From positions 1 through 53,940 of the forward strand of contig CACLFQ010000004.1 of assembly GCA_902606255.1 (NCBI GenBank): 53,940 nucleotides of DNA. Direction: 5' to 3'. The notes beneath the pieces were generated by a model. That model saw nothing but the letters and a program-made list of their open reading frames with translations. It searched no databases and was not told where the DNA came from. Below, one piece after another: positions 2,311 through 52,053 of this stretch (its first letter is position 1; every line of letters begins with the position of its first letter). A program made the translations under genes and the position numbers. The DNA comes from an uncultured Prochlorococcus sp. (GTDB lineage: Bacteria > Cyanobacteriota > Cyanobacteriia > PCC-6307 > Cyanobiaceae).

Positions 2311-2457
2311 CAATCTGATACTCAGGGAGAAGGTAAAGAGGCAGTCTGGGAAAATCTAGGTGGAGAAGGGTATAACGCTAGTTACGGAAGTTTAGGCAAT
2401 CAAAGCAATAACAATAGAACAGCTTTAGAAAGCATGCTACAACTTGTAAAACTCTAG
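2311..2457 (+). pseudogene. Decayed coding remnant upstream of tRNA-Ala
   Basis: A 48-codon open frame between stops has coding-like, Gly/Asn-rich and less AT-biased sequence: it includes EGKEAVWENLGGEGYNAS and ends in SMLQLVKL before a TAG at 2455-2457. There is no start codon, and the frame just downstream (GADFNNQTL, near 2470-2496) looks like a frameshifted continuation. I read this as the debris of a gene inactivated next to the tRNA. The family is not recognised. Confidence 0.35.
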
Positions 2458-2570
2458 GTGCATTTTAAGGCGCAGATTTCAATAATCAAACGCTTTAAAG
2501 TACTATAGGAATTACGGAAGTTACGAAAGAAATCTTTAGATTACTTGATATGACTTACGTTTTGAGATTT

Positions 2571-2643
2571 GGGGCCATAGCTCAGCTGGTAGAGCACCTG
2601 CATGGCATGCAGGGGGTCGGGCGTTCGAGTCGCCTTGGCTCCA
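2571..2643 (+). tRNA. tRNA-Ala (anticodon GGC)
   Basis: A complete 73-nt cloverleaf. The acceptor stem GGGGCCA/TGGCTCC includes the G3-U70 pair that is the alanine identity element. The D arm is GCTCAGCTGGTAGAGC, and the anticodon stem CCTGC/GCAGG encloses loop ATGGCAT, giving anticodon GGC. The variable loop is GGGTC. The T stem GGGCG/CGCCT closes with one G-U pair around TTCGAGT. CCA is not encoded beyond the discriminator A. Partial copies of its 3' half recur at 5333 and 8412, so the locus appears to be an integration site as well as a tRNA gene. Confidence 0.95.
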
Positions 2644-2770
2644 CTTAATTTTTTTAGTCATACCAAGACTTTTTAGGCAGCGTTTAGTAATAACATCACT
2701 TTTGTACGTACTTGTCCAAGCTTGTTTATGCAATTCTGCTCTCTAAAATGCTCTTAGAATTGTTTTTAAT
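2601..2770 (+). repeat. Direct repeat, copy 1 (tRNA-Ala 3' half plus downstream flank)
   Basis: From the anticodon loop of the intact tRNA to about 2770, this sequence recurs at 8412-8580. Shared blocks outside the tRNA include AGTAATAA, ACTTTTGTA, ACTTGTCCAAG and TTGTTTATGCAATTCTGC, in the same order and spacing. Such tRNA-plus-flank duplication is typical of att sites left by site-specific integration. Confidence 0.7.
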
Positions 2771-2971
2771 TTTTCCATATGGGAACAGCAATGTGAGTGC
2801 CCAACGTCAGAAAATTAATCAAATCTACTCTCTGCTTCGGGTGGTCAATTTCCTTCTAAGGAAAGAACAATCAAGTGGTAACTAAAATTTTTTATCGCTA
2901 TCCTTCAGGACAAAGAATATATATTGGATTGGTGCAATATTTCAAGCAAAGCATAAAGTGCCATAATTTTT

Positions 2972-3712
2972 TTAATTTTCTTTTAACTCAAAAAAGATTT
3001 CCATAATTTTTCGCGCATAATATTTATTCTTATGAATTAAATAAGCCCCCTCTTTTCTTTCAGAATTTTTGTTTCGAAAATTACCCAAGAAAATTGCATT
3101 CTTAGAAAATTCTGGCTTTGTAAAGAAACCATTTGTAAGCATATTATTTGATGGAAGAATAACTCTATTTAAATTCTTCTCTACTTCATTTTTAAGCAAA
3201 GTTAAAATATTTGAAATTTTATCAGATAATGATCTGTCGTTAGGGATCATCTTTATTGATTTAGGCAGAGTTAATAAAGGACGTGATATGAAAAATATTT
3301 GTTCTTTTTCAACACCCGCATTGATAAGTCTCTTTTGGAAATTTTGATTAATTATAAAATTCTTTTCCGAAAATTTTGTATGAACTATATCTAAAAATAA
3401 CTGATCTGAAATATATTTAATTTCATTGGGTGAGTTATTAGTATTAGGTTGAATCCAATCTAATAAATCTAGTGTTAAAGCTATATTAATTAAGAAATAA
3501 TCATAATCTGAAGTGCAATTAGATGCATTTCCTAATGAATTTTTAAAAAGATTTTTATTGAAATTATCACTTTTATTATTGATTGAGAAAGTTCCATTTT
3601 GAGAAAAAGTTAAGTTTTCATATAAAGACCCACCCTTACCTGCAACAATTGATATTTCTTCATCGCAAAAACAACTGCTGTGACTTGATCCAAACATTAA
3701 TATCTTTTTCAC
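2972..3712 (-). CDS. Hypothetical protein with N-terminal GSSH motif, partner of GSCFA gene
   Basis: This 246-residue protein begins MKKILMFGSSHSS, a beta-strand followed by G8-S9-S10-H11, which resembles the nucleophile block of SGNH-like hydrolases or polysaccharide-modification proteins. A later conserved-looking stretch, FISRPLLTLP, lies mid-protein. No signal peptide or membrane helix is visible. Its start overlaps the stop of the upstream GSCFA gene by 4 bases (ATGA type), so the two are almost certainly co-translated. The function is probably tied to glycan or acyl-group modification. This is inferred from the neighbour only; I do not recognise a specific family. Confidence 0.65.
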   Translation of the reverse strand: MKKILMFGSSHSSCFCDEEISIVAGKGGSLYENLTFSQNGTFSINNKSDNFNKNLFKNSLGNASNCTSDYDYFLINIALTLDLLDWIQPNTNNSPNEIKYISDQLFLDIVHTKFSEKNFIINQNFQKRLINAGVEKEQIFFISRPLLTLPKSIKMIPNDRSLSDKISNILTLLKNEVEKNLNRVILPSNNMLTNGFFTKPEFSKNAIFLGNFRNKNSERKEGAYLIHKNKYYARKIMEIFFELKEN

Positions 3713-4809
3713 TTACCAAATGCCTCTAATAAAGCTTCTTCACATTGAATATTTTCTTCACTTTTTAAATTCTCATTTACTATTTTTGGGTTAATTTTCT
3801 CTCGTTTTTTAATTGGTGGATGTTCACTTGAAAAATGCTTCATAACCATTTCCACTGTCTCATCTCTAACAGATCTCAAATTCTCCTTAAACGTTGTTGA
3901 GTGTAATCTTGGATTATTTACGATTTCATAAGAAGGAAAATAATCAATATACTCTTTGTTTGTACTTAATTGACCAGCAACTGCTCTAAGAATTGATTTT
4001 GAATGAACTGTAGAGACTAAAACGTGTTTTCCACTTGCAGTTGCTGTTAACGGTACGGGAGAAACTGTCAGGATAGTTTTAAATGATTTATTAGATCTTA
4101 ATCTTCTTAAAGTAGCTTGAAAATCTTTAAAATCTTTAATTATTTCTTTAAAAGATGCATTTTTGAATTCATAAATACTGTCATCAAATTCTCCACAGAT
4201 AGTTCCTGGTGCTGTTGGATATACCGTTCCAGATTCTTTATGGACCCACATTTCTGTAAGCCCTAATGTGAATATTAATAAATTCATTTTAGTAAAGACA
4301 TTTTTTACTTTTTCAATATGAAAATTACGATGTTCAATAACCTCTTGTTCTGAATCATGACCTTCAGGTTCAACAGCAGGTCTTAGAGCATCAAAATATT
4401 TTCCATTTTTTTTCCAAATATAATTTTCTGGTTTTCTTTCACCTGCAACTTCTTGTGCAAGTTGAAGTAATTGCTTAACTGTATAAATATTTCCATATCT
4501 TGCACTGTACATAGAAAAACCATATTTTTGATGTAAGTCATCAGGTAGTCCAGGTGGCGCTAGTTCTTCATCAATTACTTCATAACCATTCTTTTTAAGA
4601 TGTCTTGAAATATGCTGGGCAAAACAAGACCCAGCCGTTGCAATTTTAGTATTAGGTTTTATGTCAAACTTTTTCTTATAAATACTTTTAATAACATAAG
4701 GATTTTCCTGCGTCACTCCGGACTTCCAAAAAGCACTTGAAGGTAGTTCTGAATATGGATTCACGTTAATATTTTCTATAATTAAATCTTTTAATAGATT
4801 AATTATCAT
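3709..4809 (-). CDS. GSCFA domain protein
   Basis: This 366-residue protein carries the signature of the GSCFA family (PF08885), AGSCFAQHISRHL at residues 59-71, followed by conserved YSARYGNIYT and FTLGLTEMW blocks. The family is related to SGNH/GDSL-type hydrolases. It is widespread in bacterial polysaccharide clusters, but its substrate is undefined. No signal peptide is visible. It overlaps the next gene by 4 bases. The pair sits between the intact tRNA-Ala and the first tRNA remnant and so appears to be cargo of the first integrated block. Confidence 0.85.
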   Translation of the reverse strand: MIINLLKDLIIENINVNPYSELPSSAFWKSGVTQENPYVIKSIYKKKFDIKPNTKIATAGSCFAQHISRHLKKNGYEVIDEELAPPGLPDDLHQKYGFSMYSARYGNIYTVKQLLQLAQEVAGERKPENYIWKKNGKYFDALRPAVEPEGHDSEQEVIEHRNFHIEKVKNVFTKMNLLIFTLGLTEMWVHKESGTVYPTAPGTICGEFDDSIYEFKNASFKEIIKDFKDFQATLRRLRSNKSFKTILTVSPVPLTATASGKHVLVSTVHSKSILRAVAGQLSTNKEYIDYFPSYEIVNNPRLHSTTFKENLRSVRDETVEMVMKHFSSEHPPIKKREKINPKIVNENLKSEENIQCEEALLEAFGK

Positions 4810-5717
4810 AAACTCAAAAAATCAGTGAATGAGGTACAAAATTTACAATTTAATAAATTTTAATTAGGGGAACGAAAATAAGAAGAGCTCCCACACACAT
4901 AACCAAAATTGTGATCTGATATTTATGAATAAAGCATGATTTTCTTACCATTTAATGAAACGGATTTCAAGAAAAAGTTTATTGGAAAGAAAGGAAATTG
5001 CTCATCACATAAATACCTTTAAAAAAGTGTTTAAAAATTAGATTATTTAAATTATAAGATAATAATTTATACCTATCATATATACCCTATTTATAATATT
5101 TAGTACTATTTATTTCTTTGCCATAACTGAAATCTAGTAATTTAGAGGGGTTCAGGAAAGTCCCTATTTTTATGAAAAGTATCATTAAAAAAAAACTAAA
5201 AACTTTTTATACCTCTAGATTTAATACTTTCAATATGCTTGGAAAATTCTGCTCTTAGGTTTGTTCTCAGATATGTTTAAATACTGTCATAAACCCTTTA
5301 ATTGCTTCTATTTGCAGGGATTTTGGCTACTTCATCGCATGCAGGGAGCAGGGGTTCAAATCCCCTTGGTTACATTTAGTCTTATTTTTGATACCAATAG
5401 ATTAAAGGGATTCTCATAAATCTAATTATTTGACTAATGTAAGCTTTGCATCTAAAAATAGATAAATTTTGCAATAATTCTCTTAATGGGATTTTTAATT
5501 AAAGTTAACTAATGCCAAAAACTTGCTATGAAATTAAAGTTTAAGAGTCAATATTTATATCTATTACGAAATCTAGTAATAGAATCAAATCCAAATTGAG
5601 AAAATTAAATATATAGTAAGAATAAGAAATCTTATTCAAATAACTTATTTTTATAAAAAATTTAGGTAAGTTTTCTTTATATAAAAACTTATATTTATAG
5701 TATTACAAGATTACTTT
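4810..5717. other. Long non-coding, degraded stretch between GSCFA pair and GHKL gene
   Basis: About 900 bases have no gene I can support, in a genome where gaps are normally short. The only recognisable element is the tRNA-Ala 3' remnant at 5333-5374. Two short coding-like frames are too small to call. The stretch is consistent with debris between two successive insertions. Confidence 0.5.
5333..5374 (+). repeat. tRNA-Ala 3'-half remnant (putative att site B)
   Basis: This 42-base piece begins inside the anticodon loop (CATCGCATGCAGG) and continues through a perfect T arm, AGGGG-TTCAAAT-CCCCT, to TGGTTACA at the tRNA end. The 5' half of the tRNA is absent. It has the same strand and orientation as the intact gene at 2571. 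The T arm differs from the intact gene but resembles the remnant at 8412, so it is not a recent copy of the present tRNA. Confidence 0.75.
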
Positions 5718-7265
5718 ATGAAAGAAATAAATATAAAACCCGAAATGGGGATTTACAGAGTTTTTAAATATCTTAAATACTCGCCTTGGTTTGCGATATC
5801 GGAATTTATTGATAATAGTCTTCAAAGTTTTATAAATAAAAAAAATCTATCTGTCTTGAAAAGGGATAAGTGCATAGTGAATATTAAATATGAAGACAGA
5901 AAAATTATTATTACAGATAACGCTTTTGGTATTTCTGAAAGTGAACATTCAAGAGCTTTTACAGCGGGTATACCCCCTTCAAACAATAAAGGTCTTTCAG
6001 AATTTGGAGTTGGAATGAAATCTGCTGCAATTTGGTTTGCACCTAAATGGAAAGTTAAAACGCAACCTTATGAATCTAATTTAGAATTTGAATATATTTT
6101 TGATTTAGGTAAGATTATAAATTCAAATGGAAACGTTAAATGCTTAGTTTCAGAATCACTAAATAAAAAAGGTTATACATCAATAGAATTAATAGACATC
6201 TATAACAAGATAAACAAAAATCAATTGATTAAAATAAAAAGAAATTTAGAGTCTATATATAGACATTTTATTAGGGAAGAAACTTTAGAGGTAAACTTTA
6301 ATAATGAAAAATTAAGTTTTAAAGATCCTGAATTTCTAGAAGATTATTATTTTAAAAATTCTATTAAATTAAATAATAGTAAAATTCTATGGAAAAAGAA
6401 TGTTAGTTTTCAGCTAACTAATAATGCCTTAATTAGTGGATTTGTTGCATTAAGAAAAAAAGGATCTGTAGAAGAATCTGGGCTAAGCCTTTTTAGAAGA
6501 AAAAGATTAATTCTTGGAAATTATAAAAATCTTTATAAACCAAAAGAAATATTTGGCCTTCCAAATTCCATCCAATATCAAAGAATATATGGAGAATTAA
6601 ATATCACAGGGTTTGATGTATCTCATACTAAAGATGACTTCAACTTTGGAAGCTTTGAAGATGAGTTCATCCAAAAATTAAAAGATGAAATGATTAAAGA
6701 AGACTTTCCAATTTTAAGTCAGGCTATAAATTATAGACTAAAAGAATTTGATACCGAGTCACTTCAAAATCTTTTAAATGATTTAAATGAGCTAATAAAT
6801 AAGTTAAACAATACTATTCAGAATTTAATAGACAAAATTTCTTTAAGAAAAAAACTATTTTTCTTAAAATCAAAAAAATATTTTATTAATGAATTGTATG
6901 AAAAAGATTTATCAAAGGAATTTATTATTTCTAATAGACTACTTAAATTTAACTTAAAAGAAAAAATCTACACTATAAAATTTGCAATAGGAAAAACGAA
7001 TGAAAACCTAGGTTATAATATTTTTTTGTTACGTGATAAAGAAAAAAATAGAAATAATAATTTATCTTTTTTTATTTTATTCAACAAAAAATATAAACCA
7101 CTTTTAAATACTAATAAATTTGCTACTGATTCAAAAAATTATATACTATCGTATTTAATTGCATCTTCATTATCAGAAATAATATTGCTAAGCTTAAATA
7201 TTAACAATATTAAAAAAGATAGATTTCTTGAAAACGCTTTGTTGAATATTTTATTTAATAATTAA
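5718..7265 (+). CDS. GHKL (MORC/Hsp90-type) ATPase
   Basis: This 515-residue protein has an N-terminal GHKL ATP-binding fold. The N-box is E29-x-x-D32-N33. The adenine-contacting motif is D67-N-A-F-G71, a DxGxG variant with Ala in place of the first Gly. The lid motif GLSEFGVGMK lies at 92-101, the pattern of MORC-like ATPases rather than histidine kinases. A middle region (about 180-330) would correspond to an S5-like transducer. The C-terminal 170 residues are Lys/Asn-rich, with a likely coiled coil near 350-385. There is no nuclease or methylase domain and no signal peptide. MORC-like bacterial ATPases are known in restriction and other conflict systems. Here it lies between two tRNA remnants, 24 bases ahead of a methyltransferase gene. 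A defence role is inference. Confidence 0.8.
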   Translation: MKEINIKPEMGIYRVFKYLKYSPWFAISEFIDNSLQSFINKKNLSVLKRDKCIVNIKYEDRKIIITDNAFGISESEHSRAFTAGIPPSNNKGLSEFGVGMKSAAIWFAPKWKVKTQPYESNLEFEYIFDLGKIINSNGNVKCLVSESLNKKGYTSIELIDIYNKINKNQLIKIKRNLESIYRHFIREETLEVNFNNEKLSFKDPEFLEDYYFKNSIKLNNSKILWKKNVSFQLTNNALISGFVALRKKGSVEESGLSLFRRKRLILGNYKNLYKPKEIFGLPNSIQYQRIYGELNITGFDVSHTKDDFNFGSFEDEFIQKLKDEMIKEDFPILSQAINYRLKEFDTESLQNLLNDLNELINKLNNTIQNLIDKISLRKKLFFLKSKKYFINELYEKDLSKEFIISNRLLKFNLKEKIYTIKFAIGKTNENLGYNIFLLRDKEKNRNNNLSFFILFNKKYKPLLNTNKFATDSKNYILSYLIASSLSEIILLSLNINNIKKDRFLENALLNILFNN

Positions 7266-7289
7266 AAAAATTCATAAGAATTAATATAA

Positions 7290-8309
7290 ATGTTGAATAC
7301 CATGTTTTTAAATTTAAAAAAGAAGTTTAATCTTAAAGCTAAATTTAAGAAGAATCTTAAATTAAATTTTTTGCGTTTTCTTTATAAGTTTTTTTTATAT
7401 AGAAATCCTAATCAAGAAGATTTAGATAAATATCTTAATTTTTTAAAAAAGTCACGAATAAAGGATTATAAGAATGTTTTGATAAATTTTTTATATGCAG
7501 AAAGATTTATAAAAATTATAAATTTAGAGAAGTCAAAATTATTTAAATTTAATTCAATAAGTGAAAAACAGCTTTCTTTATTATTTGAAAAAACAGCATT
7601 TTATTGGAGAAATTCAGCTTCAGAAACAAAAAATATTTATTGGAGTGTTCTTACAAATAAAAAATACAAAAAGGATTTAAGTTCGAGTGAAATTAAGAAA
7701 TTTCTTGCTACAGGAAAAAGTACAGTTAACCAAATTAGAAAAATCTGCAAATTTATTGATTATGATTTAAATAACTGTAATAACTTTCTTGATTTTGGTT
7801 GTGGAGTTGGAAGAACATTAGTAAATTTACCTTCGAATATAAAAAAAGTTAATTTTGTAGATTTTAGTTATTCTCATCTTGAGGAAGCAGAAAAAAACAT
7901 TAAGAATCATAGCCAATTTAATAATTATTCTTCTTTTCTTATTTCGTCATTTTCCGAATTAAATAACTTGCCTTATAAACAAGATATTATTCACTCATTT
8001 ATTGTTTTACAGCATAATACACCTCCAATTATTGAAAAAATAGTTGAAAAACTTTTAGATATTTTATCCCCTTTTGGTATAGCAATTTTACATATACCTA
8101 TAACTAAGGCTAATTATAATTTTGATATTTTAGATTATTTAAATAGTGAAGAGTCTGGTAAAAGTATGGAGATGCATATTCTACCAAAGGCAAATCTATA
8201 CAAATTGGCCAAAAAAAATAACAGTAAAATTGTTTATTCTATTGCTGCTAATGCCTGTGGAGGTGATGTATATAGTGAATTCGTAGTATTTCAAAAAAAT
8301 GAGATGTAA
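7290..8309 (+). CDS. SAM-dependent methyltransferase with N-terminal DUF4214-like domain
   Basis: This protein has 339 residues. A DUF4214-like segment at about 28-75 (RFLYKFFLYRNP...LDKYLNFL...ERF) precedes a class I methyltransferase domain with SAM motif I LDFGCGVGR at 167-175 and an acidic strand NFVDFS at 188-193. No DNA-methylase catalytic motif (DPPY, NPPY) or Cys-type PC motif is visible, so a small-molecule, sugar or protein target is more likely than DNA. DUF4214 is often found with surface or secreted glycan functions. It follows the GHKL ATPase on the same strand with a 24-base gap, so co-transcription is likely. Its N-terminus is strongly basic. The substrate is unknown. Confidence 0.75.
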   Translation: MLNTMFLNLKKKFNLKAKFKKNLKLNFLRFLYKFFLYRNPNQEDLDKYLNFLKKSRIKDYKNVLINFLYAERFIKIINLEKSKLFKFNSISEKQLSLLFEKTAFYWRNSASETKNIYWSVLTNKKYKKDLSSSEIKKFLATGKSTVNQIRKICKFIDYDLNNCNNFLDFGCGVGRTLVNLPSNIKKVNFVDFSYSHLEEAEKNIKNHSQFNNYSSFLISSFSELNNLPYKQDIIHSFIVLQHNTPPIIEKIVEKLLDILSPFGIAILHIPITKANYNFDILDYLNSEESGKSMEMHILPKANLYKLAKKNNSKIVYSIAANACGGDVYSEFVVFQKNEM

Positions 8310-8411
8310 ATATTTAATTAATCAAAAAAGCGCTCAGTTGCGCGCCACAGTTTGTAATATTAGTACTCAAAACCTATTTATAATCATTCATATCAAGGCT
8401 TTTGGCTACTT

Positions 8412-8580
8412 CATGACATGCAGGGGGTCGTTGGTTCAAATCCCCTTGGCTACACTAAATTTCTTCAGTCATCCCAACAGTTTTCAGACGGCGTTAGTAA
8501 TAATATAACTTTTGTAGATACTTGTCCAAGGTTGTTTATGCAATTCTGCACCCAAAAATGCACTTATAAGTTTTTTATTT
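8412..8580 (+). repeat. Direct repeat, copy 2: tRNA-Ala 3' remnant (putative att site C) plus flank
   Basis: Positions 8412-8454 match the 3' half of tRNA-Ala from the anticodon loop (CATGACATGCAGGGGGTCG) to TTGGCTACA, with 35 of 43 positions equal to the intact gene by eye. The T stem (GTTGG against CCCCT) is broken, so it is not functional. The flank to 8580 aligns with 2644-2770 through ACTTGTCCAAG and TTGTTTATGCAATTCTGC. Just upstream, 8330-8343 is a GCGC-TCAGTT-GCGC inverted repeat, unusual in this AT-rich context. Confidence 0.75.
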
Positions 8581-8635
8581 TGCGAAGGATTTTATAAATT
8601 TCTGCGTTAATTATTTATAGATATTAAATGTTTTT

Positions 8636-8959
8636 ATGAAAAACTTTTCATTTTTAATTTTGGCATTGACATTCTTTATTGCATTGCCTTCTTATTCGAA
8701 TCCTACCTATGAGAAAGATAATTTTGGCAAAATGCGCAAACGTTTTGAAAGGATTGACATTAATGATGATGGACTTCTCTCAAAAGACGAAATGATTGAG
8801 GCTCACCGTAATCGAATAGACAAGATATTTTTGAAGTTTGATAAGGACGGTGATAGTAAATTATCAAAAAAAGAATTACGCTCCTTTAAGAAGGAAATGC
8901 AAAAAAAGATATACAAAACTAAAAAAAAGTTATATAAATTAGAGAATCTAGAATTTTAA
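8636..8959 (+). CDS. Secreted EF-hand calcium-binding protein
   Basis: This 107-residue protein has a cleavable-looking signal peptide (about 1-21, hydrophobic core FLILALTFFIALPSYS). Two canonical EF-hand loops follow: D41-I-N43-D-D45-G...E52 and D69-K-D71-G-D73-S...E80. The positively charged tail follows the second hand. It is thus a small exported calcium binder, probably periplasmic. It lies 9 bases ahead of an ECF sigma factor gene and is likely transcribed with it. That suggests it senses Ca2+ or another divalent metal for the sigma system. This role is inferred from synteny. Confidence 0.85.
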   Translation: MKNFSFLILALTFFIALPSYSNPTYEKDNFGKMRKRFERIDINDDGLLSKDEMIEAHRNRIDKIFLKFDKDGDSKLSKKELRSFKKEMQKKIYKTKKKLYKLENLEF

Positions 8960-8968
8960 GGAAAGTCC

Positions 8969-9517
8969 ATGGATTTAAGTTCCCACATGTGTAAAATTGC
9001 AGAGGGGGATAAAAAATCGTTCCGATTCATCGCTAAGGCTTTGGGTTGCAAAATGCATTCAACGGCAATTAAACTTTTAGGTTCATCTCATTTTGACGAT
9101 GCAGATGATGTTGTACAAATTTCTTTAATTAAACTTTGGCAATCAGCTCCTCGGTGGGTAAATAAAGGAAGTGTTGAAGGATATGTTTATAAGATCGTTT
9201 TTTCAACTTGCATGGATTTCATTAGAAGATACAAAAGTTCTGAGGAATTTAAAGATAACTATTCCAATCTAGAAATAACAAATAACAAATACAATAATAA
9301 TGAATTAAGAAAAATGCTTTTAAATAATATTCAAAAACTTCCTAAACATCAAAAAGAAGCTATTTTGCTACATTATTTTTGTGGTTATAAACAGAAGGAA
9401 GTTTCTAATATTTTAAACAAAACCGAAAAGGCTACTGAAAGCCTAATTATTCGGGCTCGCAAGAAGTTAAAAACTATTTTGTCAAAGGATTTATTGGAGG
9501 AATTATTTTATGTCTAA
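8969..9517 (+). CDS. ECF-type RNA polymerase sigma factor
   Basis: This 182-residue sigma-70 family protein contains only regions 2 and 4. Region 2 spans about 13-90, with the DDADDVVQISLIKLW core-binding block at 43-57 and the RRYK end of region 2.4. Region 4 spans about 115-170, with LPKHQKEAILLHYFCGYKQKEVS and an HTH recognition helix. Region 3 is missing, as in extracytoplasmic-function sigma factors. It probably directs RNA polymerase to a small regulon, perhaps its own operon. An AAGGAAAG ribosome-binding site lies just before the ATG. The next gene overlaps its end by 8 bases, the usual place for an anti-sigma gene. Confidence 0.9.
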   Translation: MDLSSHMCKIAEGDKKSFRFIAKALGCKMHSTAIKLLGSSHFDDADDVVQISLIKLWQSAPRWVNKGSVEGYVYKIVFSTCMDFIRRYKSSEEFKDNYSNLEITNNKYNNNELRKMLLNNIQKLPKHQKEAILLHYFCGYKQKEVSNILNKTEKATESLIIRARKKLKTILSKDLLEELFYV

Positions 9518-9770
9518 ACTAAAAAAGGAACGTCTTGATCAAATGATTGAGAATGCACTCTCTTATAAACAAGAATCAAGACGATTTAACACATATGTTT
9601 TATGTAAAAGTCTAAAAAGTTTTGTTTTAAAGCCAAATGTATATGGACTAACTTTTGCATCATTAATTATTGCTTGTGTTTTTATTCCTCCCGTGCTGAC
9701 ATCAAGGAATATCGTTGATGTAAATAAAATAAATGATTATGTGACTTTAAGTATTATTGATGATTTTTAA
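9510..9770 (+). CDS. Small single-pass membrane protein, putative anti-sigma partner
   Basis: This 86-residue protein has a charged cytoplasmic-looking N-terminus (1-43, Lys/Arg/Glu-rich), one membrane helix at about 44-63 (VYGLTFASLIIACVFIPPVL) and a 20-residue tail. It overlaps the sigma gene by 8 bases. A strong GGAGG at 9496-9500 sits 9 bases before its ATG, so translation is probably coupled. The topology and position fit an anti-sigma factor holding the ECF sigma at the membrane. No zinc-binding HxxxCxxC anti-sigma motif is present, so the role is an inference. Confidence 0.7.
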   Translation: MSKLKKERLDQMIENALSYKQESRRFNTYVLCKSLKSFVLKPNVYGLTFASLIIACVFIPPVLTSRNIVDVNKINDYVTLSIIDDF

Positions 9771-9907
9771 TGAAAAAAAGCAAAAGATTATAAAACCATT
9801 TATTGCGTAAAACATTAATAATTAATAGTCAAAAATTCTAAATTTTTTTTAGAAAATTTATATATAGCTAATAAGGTGATAAAGTTTACTATATTAATTT
9901 ATGTACA

Positions 9908-11344
9908 TTGATAAAAAAAGTTTGTTGTATCGGTGCAGGGTATGTCGGAGGACCAACTATGTCCGTTTTTGCCGATAAATGTAAAGATATTTCTTTTAAT
10001 GTTGTTGATGTTAATCCGGATAGAATTGCAGCTTGGAATAGCAAGGATTTATCAAAGCTTCCCATTTTTGAGCCTGGCTTAGATGAAATTGTAAAAAGAC
10101 GTCGCGGAAAGAATTTGACTTTTTCTACCGAAGTTCATAAGTGTATATCTGAAGCAGATATGATTTTTATTTCTGTTAATACCCCTACGAAAACTAGTGG
10201 TATTGGTGCAGGTCAAGCAAGTGATTTAAAGTGGGTAGAATCTTGTGCTAGGCAAATCTCAGAATATGCAAAAGGACACACTATTGTTGTTGAAAAAAGC
10301 ACTTTACCTGTAAGAACTGGTGAAGTAATAAAAGCTATTCTTGAGTCTTCACAATCATCTTTAAATTCTAAAAACAAAAATACATTTGATATTTTATCTA
10401 ATCCAGAATTTTTAGCAGAAGGAACAGCTATTAATGACCTTGAAAATCCTGATAGGGTTTTAATTGGAGGTTCTAATGAAAATGCAATCAATGCTCTTCA
10501 TGATCTATATAAAAAATGGGTAAATGAAGACAAAATTATTCATACCAATTTATGGAGTAGTGAGTTAGCGAAATTAACTGCTAATGCGTTTCTTGCTCAA
10601 AGGGTTAGTTCTATTAATTCAATTAGTGCTCTATGTGAAGTTACTGGTGCTGATGTTAGGGAGGTCTCACGCGCAATTGGTAAAGATAGTCGAATTGGAA
10701 GTAAATTCCTAAATGTTGGGCCAGGGTTTGGAGGCAGTTGCTTTAAAAAAGATATATTAAATCTTGTTTATTTAGCAAACCATTTTGGCCTGCCTCAAGT
10801 AGCTGATTTTTGGGAAAGTGTTGTTCATCTTAATAGTTGGAATCAAAACAGACTTACTAATATAATTTTGGAAAAACTATTTGGAACCTTAACTGAAAAA
10901 AAAATTGGTATTCTAGGTTTTTCTTTCAAGGCAAATACTAACGATACTAGGGAGTCACCAGCCGTTCAAATATGTAAGAACTTATTAAACGAAGGCGCGT
11001 ATTTGAAAATTCATGATCCCAAAGTTTCGAAGGAACAAATAGATTTAGATTTGGGCACACCACCAATTGAAGATTTAAAAAAAAATGAAGTATTAGTTAA
11101 AAAATATAAATATAAAAAATGGGAAAATTCACTTTTGGAAAATGATTTTTTTGAAAATTTAGATGCAGTTATTGTTTTAACAGAATGGGAAATTTACTCT
11201 AAAATAGAATGGGAAAAAGTATCAAAAAAAATGAGATCTCCAGGCTGGGTATTTGATTCAAGATTAATAGTAGATGAAGAAAGAGTAAAAAGTTCAGGGC
11301 TTAGTTTTTGGAGAGTAGGAGTGGGCACAGTAAGGAGAAATTAA
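9908..11344 (+). CDS. ugd: UDP-glucose 6-dehydrogenase
   Basis: This enzyme oxidises UDP-glucose to UDP-glucuronate with 2 NAD+ in the cytoplasm. The protein has 478 residues. The Rossmann motif GAGYVGGPT is at 9-17. The catalytic Cys278 lies in GFGGSCFKKDI, and the C-terminal UDP-binding domain contains GFSFKANTNDTRESP. The GGPT form, the length (bacterial enzymes are mostly 390-450) and the insert in the last third resemble the animal/plant-type subfamily, which also occurs in bacteria. The start is TTG at 9908; the ATG at 9901 is out of frame. The product can feed the UDP-glucuronate 4-epimerase at 50784. Confidence 0.95.
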   Translation: MIKKVCCIGAGYVGGPTMSVFADKCKDISFNVVDVNPDRIAAWNSKDLSKLPIFEPGLDEIVKRRRGKNLTFSTEVHKCISEADMIFISVNTPTKTSGIGAGQASDLKWVESCARQISEYAKGHTIVVEKSTLPVRTGEVIKAILESSQSSLNSKNKNTFDILSNPEFLAEGTAINDLENPDRVLIGGSNENAINALHDLYKKWVNEDKIIHTNLWSSELAKLTANAFLAQRVSSINSISALCEVTGADVREVSRAIGKDSRIGSKFLNVGPGFGGSCFKKDILNLVYLANHFGLPQVADFWESVVHLNSWNQNRLTNIILEKLFGTLTEKKIGILGFSFKANTNDTRESPAVQICKNLLNEGAYLKIHDPKVSKEQIDLDLGTPPIEDLKKNEVLVKKYKYKKWENSLLENDFFENLDAVIVLTEWEIYSKIEWEKVSKKMRSPGWVFDSRLIVDEERVKSSGLSFWRVGVGTVRRN

Positions 11345-11656
11345 GATTTCGAGTAAATTTTATTATAAATTTCTTATTTATGAATAGATGAATGTTAATT
11401 AATGAGTTTTTGTTTTAATTCTCAAAAAATTTAATAAAGATGAATTAATAATTATGATGAATCTTATAGAAAAATCAAAAAGTACAAACTTTGAGTAAAT
11501 ATCTGATTGATCAATATTGGCAAAACAAATTCTTGGATACAATAATTAATTAATAATTTTAAAAAGTTTTGAAGAAGGTTTAAATCTAACTATTTCAAAC
11601 TATAAATATTTAAAAAATAAAAATAAACTGAGGCAATAAGCTTAAATAATGGATTT
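11345..11656. other. Gap without a recognisable feature
   Basis: These 312 AT-rich bases lie between ugd and manC. I see no gene, RNA, repeat or clear promoter. It probably holds the manC promoter. Confidence 0.4.

Positions 11657-51979: not shown

Positions 51980-52053
<74 letters not shown>

Follow-up and report, generated by a model that had tools for sequence, protein, structure and literature searches.

We examined a 53,940-bp window, the whole of contig CACLFQ010000004.1 from an uncultured Prochlorococcus sp. (886-kb genome, 56% complete), and its tRNA-Ala(GGC) gene, behind which two blocks of 2.7 kb (block 1) and 3.0 kb (block 2) each end in a partial copy of the same tRNA (Table 1). 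An intact tRNA-Ala(GGC) and two truncated same-strand copies had been reported from the letters alone (the sequence-only reading), and ARAGORN and a profile search agreed with this, apart from a shift of three bases in the copy starts. Both copies start at the anticodon stem-loop and finish at the acceptor end, as had been claimed, and they scored E 2e-9 (copy 1) and 3e-11 (copy 2) when the profile was rebuilt from matches in 72 loci, window included. The likeness of copy 2 extends past the tRNA, with 2598-2684 (79%) and 2684-2766 (86%) matching 8409-8576, so that about 120 bp 3′ of the tRNA were duplicated too. A further left end of the same kind as that of block 1 lies behind copy 2, adding a third, orphan end to the two blocks first described; its right end was not found in the window, where the right-end model of this kind (type A) matches block 1 only. 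Of the "GSCFA pair" proposed for block 1, one gene stands and the second open reading frame (ORF) has no Pfam family, while the GHKL ATPase and methyltransferase of block 2 were upheld by Pfam.

Table 1. Features around tRNA-Ala(GGC) in the window, with the evidence for each. End models were built without window sequences.
Feature	Position	Strand	Evidence
Putative class I element end on the 5′ side; integrase-proximal arm pointing away from the tRNA	2417-2569	-	End model, E 5e-47
Intact tRNA-Ala(GGC), proposed attachment gene	2571-2644	+	ARAGORN
Palindromic anticodon stem-loop CCTGCATGGCATGCAGG, putative crossover region	2597-2613	+	Sequence; bases 28-44 of the whole-tRNA query
Type A left end of block 1; TGCTCT repeats at 2737-2742 and 2749-2754	2644-2775	+	End model, E 8e-36; repeats read from sequence
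Broken N-terminal fragment of tyrosine recombinase gene, in-frame stops	2764-2931	+	tblastn, G092 integrase as query: E 1.2e-9, 48% identity over 56 aa
Block 1 cargo ORF of 246 aa without a Pfam family	2972-3712	-	Pfam scan
GSCFA-family cargo gene of block 1	3709-4809	-	Pfam PF08885, E 1e-51
Type A right end of block 1; TGCTCT repeat at 5250-5255 and TGTTCT at 5262-5267	5224-5329	+	End model, E 4e-21
tRNA-Ala 3′-half copy 1	5330-5374	+	Profile of 3′ half, E 5e-12 (seed included copy)
Left end of block 2, type B	5380-5523	+	End model from three sequences (G025, G032, G178), E 9e-15
GHKL-ATPase-domain (HATPase_c_3) cargo gene of block 2	5718-7265	+	Pfam PF13589, E 5e-12
Methyltransferase cargo gene of block 2	7290-8309	+	Pfam PF13649, E 3e-9
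Core-proximal part of block 2 right end	8394-8408	+	88% over 8394-8425, E 5e-5; type A only in last bases
tRNA-Ala 3′-half copy 2, where homology to the G145 and G071 tRNA begins	8409-8455	+	Profile of 3′ half, E 1e-13 (seed included copy)
Left end, type A, TGCACC/TGCACT variant, of putative older third element	8455-8588	+	End model, E 3e-29
EF-hand gene (8636-8959) and sigma factor gene (8969-9517)	8636-9517	+	91-95% protein identity to G145/G071 genes behind intact tRNA

The window was compared within 152 loci around tRNA-Ala(GGC) or its copies, itself included, of which 138 carry an intact tRNA-Ala(GGC), with one genome per species. These loci are a non-random sample enriched for loci with copies: 26 came from ranked DNA matches, two were contigs chosen for a copy, three came from an earlier search and one is the window, 40 were taken mostly for a right end or copy found there, and 80 are other listed tRNAs picked for contig room. 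One of the 152 (G126), where the orientation pattern failed and a single match lay at its tRNA position, was left outside the 138. Shuffle p-values take no account of relatedness. For the comparison of ends, profile E-values from the end models were adopted; global alignment identity with free end gaps was dropped, as shuffles reached 86-100% and it gave no discrimination.

Alignment of relatives at the tRNA, as the sequence-only reading had proposed, revealed an empty site in two species. Only G145 and G071 among the other loci carry the EF-hand and sigma factor genes that follow copy 2 in the window, and there an intact tRNA with its type A left end directly precedes these genes. Starting at the 3′ half of the tRNA, window positions 8409-9823 align with G145 at 93.4% (1416 columns) and 8409-11576 with G071 at 93.3% (3170 columns), and the tRNA with its flanks aligns separately (window 2415-2773 and 2416-2751, respectively). 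The 5.8 kb holding both blocks are absent from G145 and G071, and the edge, at 8409, falls in the anticodon stem. The alignments show that the predicted blocks are present in one species and absent in others, with the breakpoint at the tRNA-like core, and they support the successive tRNA-targeted integration that had been suggested. The blocks are not shared by all close relatives, for the four cargo genes were not detected in the other 151 loci (tblastn, E 1e-5), and across 266 genomes, this one included, relatives of the GSCFA gene occur in six (E 1e-30) and of the GHKL gene in seven (E 1e-15). Where such relatives lie elsewhere (11 loci), their short flanks held no tRNA and no tRNA-Ala half.

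Across the sample, same-strand 3′-half copies were found 44 times downstream of the tRNA, in 37 of the 138 loci, and never upstream (1413 kb and 298 kb covered, respectively), and 13 loci that lack the tRNA hold another 17 copies. Across the loci, 17 sequence types were counted for the final 29 bases of the tRNA vs. seven for the first 35, and this greater variety of the 3′ end is in keeping with replacement of 3′ halves. The 3′ type of the tRNA is also associated with the type of the adjoining end (p 0.002, uncorrected for descent). In one locus (L027, G021:C8, 3085-8351), three 3′-half copies stand behind a single tRNA, the last two being 126 bp apart from start to start with no ORF between them.

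Conserved ends adjoin the copies, as expected if block breakpoints lie at the tRNA-like sequences. In alignments around copies and tRNAs, left ends, found 3′ of a tRNA or copy, came in three kinds, and right ends, found 5′ of a copy, in two or more. In types A and C each end bears a pair of short repeats (TGCTCT or TGCACT/TGCACC in type A; TGCGACC or TGCGAGC in type C). Pairing was assessed in 41 blocks of at least 400 bp, smaller ones being dropped; 21 of them were unreadable at one or both ends and one had mixed repeats. Both ends could be typed in 20 of the 41, and all 20 had the same type at both (shuffle p 1.5e-5), with the repeat variant equal at both ends in 17 of 19 blocks (shuffle p 0.0013). 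Block 1 is of type A with TGCTCT at both ends, block 2 was untypable at either end in this analysis, and the type C end models had no match in the window. In these 20 readable blocks of the 41, a layout like that of lambda-type sites was found, with putative arm motifs flanking a core and matched within the element. By eye, some 25 bases before the core of type C right ends resemble a tRNA D arm (ATAGCTTAGTTGGT), as if the core derived from a fuller tRNA copy.

The sequence-only reading saw no integrase at the locus, and this no longer holds: block 1 retains, behind the tRNA, the broken N-terminal part of a tyrosine recombinase gene. It sits where full-length relatives begin. A tyrosine recombinase gene of full length lies directly 3′ of the tRNA on the same strand in four of the 138 loci (G092, G129, G162, G128), all with a type A left end, which answers the earlier suggestion to look for one in longer versions. 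Pieces from the N-terminus alone occur there in 10 loci, window included, in a search that covered 800 bp around the tRNA and so favoured such pieces; a C-terminal piece lies about 7 kb downstream in G235. That the pieces are tRNA-proximal fits erosion halting at an essential tRNA gene. The supposed decay of the elements is borne out for block 1, with its broken integrase and intact versions elsewhere. PHROGs labels the family as integrase, while in Pfam the G092 protein falls below the cut-off and the G180 protein is unmatched; a Pfam PF00589 scan of 61 genomes missed the G073 integrase at tRNA-Ala, and searches with the proteins themselves were used instead.

No full-length integrase of type C was found at tRNA-Ala in 190 of the 266 genomes, searched at >50% identity with an 82-residue stub from G176; the only matches above this level were the stub itself, a pseudogene in G279 and one full-length gene in G078. 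The latter (L085 5600-7325, G078:C7) encodes a 453-residue integrase behind a stretch that resembles, by eye, the 5′ half of tRNA-Arg(TCT), with an intact tRNA-Arg about 9 kb away, and reads as an element at another tRNA with its integrase at the displaced half. The window itself carries a tRNA-Arg(TCT) at 51980-52053, a tRNA seemingly targeted by an island in G078.

We read tRNA-Ala(GGC) as the attachment site of stacked tyrosine-recombinase elements of the tycheposon type, of which block 1 has since decayed, with a probability of about 0.92. An element would carry a tRNA 3′ half between two arms, and recombination in the palindromic anticodon stem-loop would join this half to the chromosomal 5′ half, so that the tRNA stays whole while the previous 3′ half ends up at the far side of the element. 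The window would hold three stacked element starts, namely the older orphan end, block 2 and block 1 with its GSCFA gene, the newest presumably being the one next to the tRNA. Block 1 would afterwards have lost most of its integrase and kept the piece adjoining the tRNA, and the blocks probably no longer move by themselves.

Integration on the 3′ side, as first claimed, is supported, and the 5′ flank of the tRNA (2417-2569) also looks like an element end. The 3′-side left-end model of type A matches this flank on the minus strand as well (2555-2438, E 2.4e-8), so the two sides look like inverted relatives. The flank was also considered as a conserved upstream coding gene, which was tested and ruled out. 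Beyond this end no integrase match was found within the window; in G163 and G188 the same class of flank (class I) runs into a full-length integrase. A 5′-side integrase of full length, pointing away from the tRNA, is present in seven of the 138 loci and pieces in 32, one of which (G128) is clipped by the locus end. TRNA-proximal 5′ flanks were recognised at 91 of the 138 tRNAs (class I, 71; class II, eight; class III, 12), and a 3′-side left end lies directly behind 63 (type C, 30; type A, 24; type B, nine), with both sides occupied at 43 and neither at 27. The frequency of class I may partly reflect descent rather than fresh insertion.

Displaced 5′-half copies were detected upstream of the tRNA at 31 kb (G073), 13 kb (G188) and 6.3 kb (G180), and on another contig in G176; at E 0.1 none was found in the other 25 of 29 genomes, including G163, G162 and G171 with their 5′-side integrases, although the contig may end first. 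With the whole tRNA as query, the 5′-half copies of G073, G188 and G180 stop within the palindrome, at base 42-43, and are thus halves rather than whole genes; two 3′-half copies start at bases 23 and 27. In G073 the match of the far 5′ copy runs on along the class I flank, while class II adjoins the tRNA itself, the arrangement expected from stacking on the 5′ side. The 31-kb stretch 5′ of the tRNA-Ala in this one-contig genome (G073:C1:1276366-1307823) is bounded by the displaced 5′ half. In a midpoint-rooted FastTree phylogeny of 32 proteins, from which five short sequences were left out, the ten integrases of the classes 5′I, 5′II and 3′ formed one clade (support 1.0), with the 3′ ones as one group (0.993); the order of the switch received a support of 0.479, and the class III protein joins weakly, at 0.308. 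Judged from these sequences, elements lie on both sides of tRNA-Ala(GGC), and most integrases of both orientations belong to one clade. Zhao and Williams reportedly described elements at the 5′ part of tRNA genes in 2002, and like these the 5′-side elements here leave 5′-half copies; the difference is that here a single tRNA gene is occupied from both sides, for the most part by members of one integrase clade. Use of the 5′ part is considerably less frequent according to the passage concerned in PMC6563490.

Viral contigs carry the same tRNA half. Four IMG/VR contigs (L300, L303, L304 and L305) contain the 3′ half of tRNA-Ala(GGC) and no whole tRNA, and the half is followed by a same-strand ORF of 389-437 residues in the place of an integrase. 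With this half next to an integrase-like ORF, these are possible temperate cyanophages at the same site. They also carry an endolysin (L300, L303, L304), a ribonucleotide reductase (L300, L305) or a virion gene (L300). The 3′-half stretch of L300 matched mainly tRNA-Ala of cyanophages in the phages collection, which gave no protein match; the viral contigs held no relative of the G092 integrase, and two right-end patterns, one of type A and one of type C, had no exact counterpart in them. Phages thus seem to use the 3′ half of tRNA-Ala as well, an independent instance of a putative phage attachment site (attP).

Several points weigh against the reading of stacked elements at tRNA-Ala. No integrase trace was found in block 2, and its right end was unmatched by every end model in the window search, its outer part being unlike type A; block 2 as one element is therefore weaker than block 1. 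The repeat variant differs between the two ends in G162 and G077, and two 3′-half copies lie on the strand opposite the tRNA, a few kb downstream (L161/G159 and L276/G272). No intermediate with one block was seen among the loci examined, and from one genome per species a gain here cannot be separated from a precise loss in G145 and G071, both of which need the same kind of recombination. As for the phages, a PHROG integrase match was obtained for the ORFs of L303 and L304 only, those of L300 and L305 being integrase-like by tblastn to the tRNA-island integrases alone (best E about 1e-5), and the L300 ORF starts inside the tRNA half, which makes its start uncertain.

The blocks might be more than relics, namely cassettes of two ends with one or two cargo genes that are moved in trans by integrases encoded elsewhere, and we regard this as a tentative alternative with the odds against it. 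Among the 21 blocks with a type C right end (0.1-3.8 kb overall), 15 contain just one ORF of 60 residues or more, and the type C left end, present at 30 of the 138 tRNAs, is never followed directly by a full-length integrase. In G176 a type C left end with the 82-residue integrase stub is accompanied by an intact integrase on the other side of the tRNA, and the end variants still match within blocks. However, that G176 block holds another integrase, 30% identical, no cassette was encountered at more than one place or in more than one state, the N-terminal pieces that remain are in line with simple erosion as far as the essential tRNA, and recently decayed elements would look identical.

It is considerably less probable, and in our view very unlikely, that homologous recombination between strains in a flexible island placed the blocks, with the tRNA copies as functionless hitch-hiking relics. 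The tRNA does lie in a variable region, as for 10 of the 12 nearby window genes 28 loci of the genus yielded no relative, and sugar-nucleotide genes are among the neighbours, but the homology with G145 and G071 begins at the tRNA core, which weakens this explanation, and same-strand copies on the 3′ side alone (44 vs. 0) and the matched block ends also speak against it. That the 3′-half copies are complete tRNA genes decayed in place, and not attachment sites, is hardly credible, for despite the D-arm likeness of type C right ends, conserved type A ends that are not tRNA-like adjoin the copies (20 right ends aligned), and copies compared with the whole tRNA match its 3′ part only or its 5′ part only.

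Tycheposons of Prochlorococcus were reportedly described by Hackl and colleagues in Cell in 2023. The likeness lies in insertion at a tRNA with a partial tRNA copy at the far end, and, as far as the tycheposon passages of PMC10872708 go, in the tRNA target, a tyrosine recombinase beside it in intact relatives, the placing of the cargo in flexible islands and the same genus. In those passages tycheposons measure 4-200 kb, so the blocks here are smaller, and neither has a whole recombinase of its own beside the tRNA: block 1 retains a broken fragment, and block 2 gave no match. Block 1 can be placed as a decayed tycheposon relative rather than an intact member, with block 2 less certain. Replication or packaging genes are hallmarks of tycheposons, and a scan of the four cargo proteins showed none of that kind. 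The PMC10872708 passages do not describe the putative two-sided use and matched arms, those on tycheposons in PMC10803314 and PMC12416821 add nothing further, and no literature on tRNA-Ala in Prochlorococcus islands was found, as judged by titles and abstract openings. For the siphovirus P-SS2, the relevant part of PMC2784084 gives a putative site at tRNA-Met in Prochlorococcus MIT9313, similar in its partial tRNA copies beside the tRNA and an integrase-linked phage match, but at another tRNA and with no arm pairs described there. In layout only, the blocks also resemble CALIN, the integrase-less integron arrays treated in parts of PMC11389934, with short cargo units and sites and no integrase; the sites here are tRNA halves with arm repeats rather than attC, and movement in trans is a proposal.

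Around this one gene, 138 loci bring together tRNA-targeted islands in intact and decayed form and their empty site, in a photosynthetic genus that is among the most abundant. With one integrase clade on both sides of the tRNA, the way in which an integrase changes its target orientation becomes open to direct test, and the matched arm variants hint at the blocks that a particular integrase might still mobilise. As a more speculative idea, which we hold to be rather unlikely, the anticodon palindrome may serve as a two-sided docking hub, at which one integrase clade switched the tRNA half that its elements carry, elements stack both 5′ (with the 5′ half and the upstream region) and 3′ (with the 3′ half), and a pool of short cassettes reduced to matched arms and one cargo gene is moved in trans by integrases from either side. 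If so, the locus would be a tRNA-based counterpart of the integron array.

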